Below are positions 16,438 through 62,925 of a DNA stretch of 64,000 nt, in pieces (position 1 is the stretch's first letter; each line of letters starts with the position of its first letter). This stretch comes from Citreicoccus inhibens (GTDB lineage Bacteria; Myxococcota; Myxococcia; Myxococcales; Myxococcaceae): NCBI RefSeq assembly GCF_019039035.1, contig NZ_JAHNZT010000013.1, positions 1 to 64,000 on the forward strand, read 5' to 3'. The notes beneath the pieces are model-generated. The model ran no database searches and was not told the DNA's origin. It saw only the letters and a program-made list of their open reading frames with translations. Position numbers and translations under genes: made by a program.

Positions 16438-16560
16438 GGCAGGGGGCCCTGCTAGGACGGGCCCGTTGCCCACGGTGGACCTGTGTGTCGGGTCCGCCTT
16501 TCCCACCCGGTACCTGATACGGCCGGGGTGGTGGGGCCCGCGAGGGTCCCGGAGCGTGTC

Positions 16561-61013: not shown

Positions 61014-61045
61014 GTGCTTGACGTGGGGGGCGTGTCTGCTATCTT
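61014..61045 (+). promoter_or_regulatory. Promoter of relocated rplC
   Basis: GTGCTTG (61014) with -35 TTGACG (61018-61023), a 16-nt spacer and extended -10 TGCTATCTT (TATCTT 61040-61045). The match to a sigma-70-type promoter is good. The GTGCTTG and TGCTATC blocks recur before infA. The predicted start is near 61052, giving a leader of about 87 nt. Confidence 0.65.
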
Positions 61046-61058
61046 GCGCCGCTTCCTG

Positions 61059-61122
61059 GCGCCCGTGGGATGCTGTGCGGGCCAGTTCATTGATTTTATT
61101 GGGTTTTCAGCGCCACGGGCGC
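61059..61122 (+). promoter_or_regulatory. Structured rplC leader
   Basis: Perfect 10-bp inverted repeat GCGCCCGTGG/CCACGGGCGC (61059-61068, 61113-61122) encloses a 44-nt loop with an unusually AT-rich stretch for this genome. It ends eight bases before the Shine-Dalgarno GAGGA (61130-61134), so it may control rplC translation. Confidence 0.5.
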
Positions 61123-61138
61123 TCGCTGTGAGGACGAC

Positions 61139-61810
61139 GTGAAGGGTCTGATTGGCAAGAAGATCGGAATGACCCAGGTGTTCAACGACGAGGGCAACCT
61201 CGTTCCGGTGACGGTCATCGACGTCAACACCTGCCAGGTGATGGGCAAGCGCACCCCGGAGAAGGATCAGTACTCCGCGGTGACCCTCGGCTTCGGCGAG
61301 GTTCGCGAGAAGGTGCTGACCCAGCCGGTGCGTGGCTTCTTCAAGAAGAACAACGCCGCGCCGCGCCGCCACCTGAAGGAGTTCCGCGTGTCTCCTGAGG
61401 AGGCTGCGGGCTTCAACGTGGGCGACGCCGTGAAGGCGGACATGTTCGCGAAGGGCCAGCTCGTGGACATCACGGGCATCACCAAGGGTCGCGGCTTCTC
61501 CGGCGTCATGCGCCGCTGGAGCTTCAAGGGTTCGCAGACGAAGACGCACGGTACGCACGAGTACCAGCGTCACCCGGGCGCCATCGGTCAGCGTAAGACG
61601 CCGGGCCGTACGTACCCGAACAAGAAGATGCCCGGCCACTACGGCGTGGAGCAGGTCACCACCCAGAACCTGTCCGTCGTGGCGGTGGATGTGGAGAAGG
61701 GCCTCGTCCTGGTCAAGGGCGCCGTCCCGGGCCACAACGACGCCATCGTCTACGTTCGCCCCAGCATCAAGGTGGCGATGCGCGAGCAGCACAAGGCCGC
61801 GCGCGGCTGA
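61139..61810 (+). CDS. rplC: 50S ribosomal protein L3, outside the S10 cluster
   Basis: L3 is an early 50S assembly protein near the peptidyl-transferase centre. GTG 61139 follows GAGGACGAC and gives 223 residues: GLIGKKIGMTQVFNDEGNLV at the start, GRGFSGVMRRWSFKGSQTKT in the middle, and the Gln-containing QRKTPGRTYPNKKMPGHYG near residue 156. Length and motifs are normal and there is no sign of decay. It stands alone between unrelated genes with its own promoter, leader hairpin and terminator; its normal place between rpsJ and rplD is empty. Confidence 0.98.
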   Translation: MKGLIGKKIGMTQVFNDEGNLVPVTVIDVNTCQVMGKRTPEKDQYSAVTLGFGEVREKVLTQPVRGFFKKNNAAPRRHLKEFRVSPEEAAGFNVGDAVKADMFAKGQLVDITGITKGRGFSGVMRRWSFKGSQTKTHGTHEYQRHPGAIGQRKTPGRTYPNKKMPGHYGVEQVTTQNLSVVAVDVEKGLVLVKGAVPGHNDAIVYVRPSIKVAMREQHKAARG

Positions 61811-61843
61811 TTCACGCAGCGCGTCTGTTCCCGAGCGCGACCG

Positions 61844-61894
61844 ACGCCCCGTCTCCGGGCCCTTCCAGGGTGCCGGGCGGGGCGTTCGTTTTTT
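61844..61894 (+). terminator. Rho-independent terminator of rplC
   Basis: Stem ACGCCCCG/CGGGGCGT (61844-61851, 61878-61885), extended internally by the complementary CGGGC/GCCGG-type region, followed by TTCGTTTTTT. This is the clearest intrinsic terminator in the window. Confidence 0.8.
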
Positions 61895-62106
61895 CAGCCC
61901 TGGGGGACTCGGAAGCGTTCGGCAGTGGGCGGGAGGGGCGCGCGGGGTGGAAAGTCCTGCAACCCGGGGCGCCCTCACCTTGCCGCGAGGGGGCGGCGTG
62001 TGCACATCGCTGTGCCACGGAAGAGGCCTGATCGGTGACGCGGGCTTCGCGTTGGGGGAGGCTCGGCCTCTCGCACACGGCGGCCCCCCCGGGCCGGGCA
62101 GGAGCC

Positions 62107-62925
62107 ATGAAAGCACGCTCGTTTCGCGTTCTCACTTCGCTGCTCGCCACGCTGACGGCGCTCGGGGCTGCCGCCCAGGAGGAGGGCGTCCTCGACTCGG
62201 CGGTCGTCCGCAATCGGCTGTATCGCCCGGCGGGGCATCCGGAGCTGTCGTTGTCGGTGGGACTGCCGGTGCAGACGCACCTGACCGCCCACTACTTCTT
62301 CGACGTGGGGTTGGCCTACAACCTCTTCGACACGCTCGCGGTGGAGGCCCGTGCGGGCTACGCGGCCAGTCGCCACACCGGGTTGGCGCGCTCCATCTCG
62401 GAGAGCTTCCTGGACCGGCAGGACAAGAAGATCACCGACGAGCTCGAAGACCTCTGGCAGATGAACTTCCATGGGGTCGCGGGTGTGCGTTGGGCGCCCG
62501 TCTACGGGAAGTTGAGCCTGGTGTCGGACATCCCGGCGCACTTCCAGGCCTACCTCTGGGCGGGAGGTGGGGTGGGCTCGTTCAAGCGCAAGTCCGTCAT
62601 CCAGTGCTCACATGTGGTGGACCGCACGGCGGGCGTCTGCGACGACCGGACCTCGCTGGATGATCGCGGCACGGCGCGCGAGGACTTCTGGGTCCACGAG
62701 ACGCGCGTGGCGCCGGTGGTGTCTGGGGCGCTGGGCTTCCGCTTCTTCATCCTCGACAAGCACGGCGTGAAGCTGGAGGTGCGCGATTGGATCTTCCGCG
62801 ACAGCTACCGCGTGAACCTGCTGCGGGATGACTGGGAGGCCGGCCGCGAGACGGGGGAGAAAGCCCCCAGCCCTGGACTCACGCACCTGGTGCAGTTCGA
62901 CCTTGGCTACACCTTCTCCTTCTAG
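62107..62925 (+). CDS. Outer-membrane beta-barrel protein
   Basis: The 272-residue protein from ATG 62107 has a signal peptide (LTSLLATLTALGAAAQEEGV) and alternating hydrophobic strands with aromatic ends (TAHYFFDVGLAYNLFDTLAV, then LVQFDLGYTFSF at the end), typical of an outer-membrane barrel of eight or so strands. The C-terminal Phe is a barrel-assembly signal. Two Cys (IQCSHVV, GVCDDRT) may form a disulfide. It is nine bases upstream of a second barrel gene. Confidence 0.82.
   Translation: MKARSFRVLTSLLATLTALGAAAQEEGVLDSAVVRNRLYRPAGHPELSLSVGLPVQTHLTAHYFFDVGLAYNLFDTLAVEARAGYAASRHTGLARSISESFLDRQDKKITDELEDLWQMNFHGVAGVRWAPVYGKLSLVSDIPAHFQAYLWAGGGVGSFKRKSVIQCSHVVDRTAGVCDDRTSLDDRGTAREDFWVHETRVAPVVSGALGFRFFILDKHGVKLEVRDWIFRDSYRVNLLRDDWEAGRETGEKAPSPGLTHLVQFDLGYTFSF

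Follow-up and report, generated by a model that had tools for sequence, protein, structure and literature searches.

The window, i.e., the whole 64-kb stretch of DNA that was analysed, carries the gene of the ribosomal protein L3, rplC, on the forward strand at 61139-61810. The gene starts with GTG, encodes 223 amino acids and was assigned to TIGR03625 with 269 bits, a full-length normal gene as the original prediction had described it. Protein and family searches over the whole 9.05-Mb genome revealed no second rplC, thus this is the sole copy. Upstream, a sigma-70-type promoter with an extended -10 element (TGC-TATCTT) was located at 61018-61045 (+), in the form TTGACG-16-TGCTATCTT. It was the only sigma-70-like site in the 3 kb scanned, for which 0.1 sites were expected, and it is kept in 32 distinct relatives as TGCTTGAC...TGCTA(C/G)ATTGCGCC. 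Placed from the promoter, by the position 3' of the -10 element, transcription would start near 61052; the putative 5' leader covers 61052-61138 (+) and includes a Shine-Dalgarno sequence, GAGG, at 61130-61133 (+). Behind the gene follows an intrinsic terminator at 61843-61894 (+), a GC hairpin of -32.9 kcal/mol and then TTCGTTTTTT with T6 at 61889. It is the strongest terminator in the window and the sole one there with six T. Promoter, terminator and relocation of rplC exceed chance expectation. The self-contained transcription unit that had been proposed from a first reading of the DNA, with a good promoter and the best terminator of the window, is real. Downstream of rplC, at 62035-62925, lies a gene for an outer-membrane beta-barrel protein, a member of the myxobacterial OMP family TIGR04565.

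The S10 operon is one of the best conserved bacterial gene clusters. At the start of the window, the gene order is the 3' part of tuf, rpsJ, rplD, rplW, rplB and rpsS. Between rpsJ (S10, 778-1086, +) and rplD (L4, 1139-1762, +, TIGR03953), which follows directly, rplC is missing; the predicted distance of about 60 kb to the S10 operon was confirmed. The gap of 196 nt between tuf and rpsJ (582-777) shows by eye a promoter-like TTGCAT-17-GATAAT with a leader behind it, and the S10 operon may have a start of its own in this gap. The same genes flank rplC in Myxococcus, Corallococcus, Pyxidicoccus, Archangium and Hyalangium; in more distant relatives the neighbours of rplC differ between families and the leader is retained. 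Adjacency of rpsJ and rplC was observed in none of 60 relatives and in none of the 87 Myxococcota genomes drawn, among the matches listed with both genes; across relatives, rpsJ and rplC were separated by distances between about 5 kb and 1.8 Mb. Eighty-two of the 83 loci checked, nearly all from Myxococcota, had neither rpsJ nor rplD in the flanks of rplC. In the one exception (L157), rpsJ is directly followed by rplD at 4.9 kb from rplC, and the S10 operon there is also without rplC. Since rplC is apart from the S10 genes in the sampled Myxococcota, whereas all 22 loci from other phyla had rpsJ beside rplC, the relocation is ancient and not local: to judge from these gene orders, the separation is a trait of all sampled Myxococcota and no peculiarity of one genome. 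A literature search, with most subscription papers beyond its reach, yielded no account of an L3 leader or of a myxobacterial rplC outside the S10 operon; for the relocation this absence is weak evidence of novelty. In two other Myxococcota families rplC lies directly after an apparent enolase gene (L139, L142, L146). Three genomes of one family (f7; G041, G047 and G051) have an in-frame TAG inside the part of rplC that was matched; L3 probably ends earlier there.

The stronger result was obtained with the leaders of related families, not with the window's own leader. In deeper Myxococcales families, the rplC leader holds a hairpin directly 5' of the ribosome site, located 16-40 nt upstream of the start codon, with two covarying stems and a C-CUC/C-G internal loop. 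The outer stem has about five pairs, the last being C-G; the 5' loop is CUC, alternatively CGC, CAC or CAA, with one unpaired base on the 3' side, and the upper stem begins usually with U-A or C-G. Examples are GGAAC CUC UGCG..CGCA C GUUCC, CGCAC CUC UGGC..GCCA C GUGCG and CGACC CGC CAG..CUG U GGUCG. A first motif scan detected the form in 22 of 61 leaders at a score of at least 9, versus 0.28 in shuffles. Of 44 leaders from four family groups (f1-deep, f3, f7 and f9), the refined scan identified it in 37: 23/28 in the deep Myxococcaceae genera and 4/4, 7/9 and 3/3 in the other three. The controls gave on average less than 0.1 per group in shuffles and 47 hits in 20,000 random genomic 120-mers. 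Among 38 distinct members, 92.7 % of the cells were paired versus 70.6 % in shuffles, eight of nine pairs had changed on both sides and 70 cells were compensated versus 23 in shuffles, pair counts which are inflated toward structure by the selection of the members with the motif scan, a bias from which the scan controls are free. The hairpin is specific for rplC: of 12 carrier genomes searched as a whole with a covariance model, 10 had the rplC leader as their top match. The L3 protein tree, with a root distorted by one long row, fits a hairpin that is old in the order and was lost several times. Leaders often, though not necessarily, resemble the rRNA site of their protein. A pattern scan of the E. 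coli 23S rRNA yielded no striking match to the hairpin and no convincing sign of mimicry. Rfam had no match in any of 12 loci that carry the hairpin or a form close to it, and Table 1 of the ribosomal leader (r-leader) survey of Eckert and Weinberg (2020; PMC7247131) lists neither an L3 leader nor an rplC-only leader; on both counts the hairpin appears to be previously unreported.

The Anaeromyxobacteraceae (20 leaders) lack this form and have a hairpin of their own, GUCC-U-CCGCG / CGCGG-C-GGAC, with 9 compensated cells versus 3.3 in shuffles. It is followed by a nearly invariant stretch up to GCGAGG. Between hairpin and rplC start codon, the loci L124-L135 and L194-L206 share a nearly invariant GGACCAATGCGAGGT, a conservation that appears far beyond the needs of a ribosome site. 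Among the leaders of other classes, only that of L157 resembles the hairpin of the deeper families.

For the clade of the window, 32 distinct leaders of relatives from Myxococcus to Archangium were aligned over the stretch that begins with the -10 element and ends at codon 8. The refined scan and the covariance model did not find the deep-family hairpin in the window's own leader. Two stretches are invariant in all 32 leaders, TTGCGCCGCTTC where transcription would start and GTGAGGA around the ribosome site. The former is part of an rplC-specific element, TTGCGCCGCTTCC, which extends over the -10 element and the transcript start (61044-61056, +) and is nearly or fully invariant. This 13-mer has one further exact copy in the genome, within a coding frame; for exact copies, a promoter motif common to many genes was thus ruled out. 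In the RNAalifold consensus of the clade, codons 2-7 are the partner of the invariant 5' end, with no covarying pair. A pairing of the element with codons 2-4 could be drawn from this model as a speculation, but it cannot be judged because the element never varies; the element may be conserved for transcription and not for RNA folding. Two short hairpins follow. P1 (61056-61085, +) joins CTG (61056-61058) and GCCCG (61061-61065) with CGGGC (61078-61082) and CAG (61083-61085), and one of its pairs varies as CG/AU/UA. P2 (61110-61122, +), GCGCC-ACG-GGCGC, lies just 5' of the ribosome site; its GCGC/GCGC core is present in 32 of 32 relatives, with flanking pairs that covary in part. Together, P1 and P2 had 26 compensated cells versus 12 in shuffles and far fewer with the partner slid. 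The covariation speaks modestly for both hairpins because many cells stay unpaired among the 32 relatives, and the control element of the window's own clade is only weakly defined. In the window's species P1 and P2 are not the minimum-energy fold; the unconserved long stem discussed below is better by about 10 kcal/mol.

L3 is a primary binder of 23S rRNA. The assembly of the 50S subunit depends in its first step on six proteins, of which L3 is one (PMC10931766). Ribosomal leaders are structures by which an excess ribosomal protein binds its own mRNA, and with a single-gene leader the product of that gene is the usual ligand (PMC7247131). We consider it somewhat probable that rplC in these bacteria is preceded by an L3 leader whose structure turned over between lineages. 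Comparison of gene orders shows that rplC parted from the S10 operon in an ancestor of the sampled Myxococcota; since then it has been a single-gene unit behind a promoter of its own. The mRNA has a folded leader that ends just 5' of the ribosome site, in several Myxococcales families with the two-stem hairpin and its asymmetric C-CUC/C-G internal loop, as the covariation shows. L3 in surplus over rRNA would most likely bind this leader and stop ribosome loading; L3 would thereby be balanced independently, as the single-gene arrangement and the known ribosomal leaders suggest. In the clade of the window and, separately, in the Anaeromyxobacteraceae other structures would have replaced the hairpin. 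For the window's clade these would be the invariant 5' element, P1 and P2, which are visible in part, presumably with the same feedback. That L3 is the ligand and represses translation, and that P1 and P2 of the window act in the same way, is an inference. The original prediction had named the leader hairpin as a natural candidate for the independent control of L3; the leader is indeed a plausible site for L3-specific control, with the best evidence provided by a different hairpin in related families. The wider claim of a first L3-sensing leader, in which the C-CUC/C-G hairpin arose after the relocation and later gave way to unrelated L3-responsive structures in the Anaeromyxobacteraceae and the Myxococcus-Archangium clade, is slightly less likely than not.

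The leader structures might instead serve mRNA stability or general ribosome access, giving a very strongly expressed gene an open and stable 5' end, without sensing of L3; the stoichiometry would then depend on how strong the promoter is, on growth-rate control and on the breakdown of surplus L3. Such a role would fit the strong conserved promoter, whose start region is rich in GC like that of growth-controlled promoters, the conservation of mainly the 5' end in the leaders of the window's clade, and the position of the leader hairpins before and not over the ribosome site. We regard it as unlikely; a near-fixed C-CUC/C-G loop amid varying stems is left unexplained, as is the restriction of the hairpin to rplC. 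Another ligand, L4, a further ribosomal protein or a non-ribosomal factor, could bind the leader and couple rplC in trans to the S10 operon. In E. coli, the S10 operon, rplC included, is under the control of L4 (PMC10931766), and the protein bound by a leader is in some cases not the product of the next gene (PMC7247131). Covariance model and scan found no copy of the hairpin at the rpsJ leaders of 13 genomes, and with the usual preference of a single-gene leader for its own product this makes such a coupling improbable.

The control of L3 had been sought in a 10-bp stem, GCGCCCGTGG / CCACGGGCGC, at 61059-61068/61113-61122 (+). The stem itself exists: it is the predicted minimum-energy fold in the window's species (probability 0.99) and was otherwise predicted only in the second member of the species pair and in L077 (0.83). 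It folds modestly better than shuffles, with z-scores of -2.0 for the 89-nt leader and -0.9 for 101 nt. The proposed comparison of the leader across relatives gave 64.9 % paired cells in the 32 relatives versus 64.9 % in shuffles, and one pair only with changes on both sides. As a conserved control element the stem was thus ruled out, and that it regulates by itself as a new device of the window's genus is very doubtful.

The L3 leader proposed here has several relatives among known systems. Like the r-leaders (PMC7247131), the rplC leader is structured, covarying, situated in the 5' UTR of one ribosomal gene and restricted to lineages; a structural turnover is also known from the five L31 leaders. 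A covarying structure, as expected of an r-leader, is present in the deeper families and the Anaeromyxobacteraceae, modestly in the window's clade and not in the 10-bp stem. As is also expected, the leader always lies 5' of a ribosomal protein gene, rplC, and inside its transcript, the promoter being farther upstream. The closest working analogue found is the translational operator of E. coli rplY (bL25), where an irregular hairpin immediately precedes a ribosome site with a conserved GAGA (PMC10931766). In many deep Myxococcaceae, the rplC leader has the order hairpin, GAGAGAAAG, ATG; the ribosome sites of other families are AGGAG or GAGG. The likeness is one of layout alone, as gene, sequence and stems are different from those of the rplC hairpin. 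The S10 leader of E. coli also binds a ribosomal protein and controls rplC, but it does so for a multi-gene operon with L4 as ligand, a long leader and transcription attenuation, whereas the rplC of the window is outside the operon, 60 kb away, with a leader without an attenuator-like terminator. A phylum with a lone rplC can show what takes the place of the E. coli-type control of L3 via L4, and a covarying rplC-only leader makes autoregulation by L3 directly testable; if true, L3 would be a new ligand in the list of r-leaders. The repeated replacement of the leader structure would have taken place with gene and presumed function retained. In the Rfam scan of the window, the sole leader match was the L17 leader RF03132 at 16474-16531 (+) with 41.4 bits in the ribosomal-protein part; it, too, is a leader 5' of just one ribosomal protein gene of this genome, with unrelated structure and gene.
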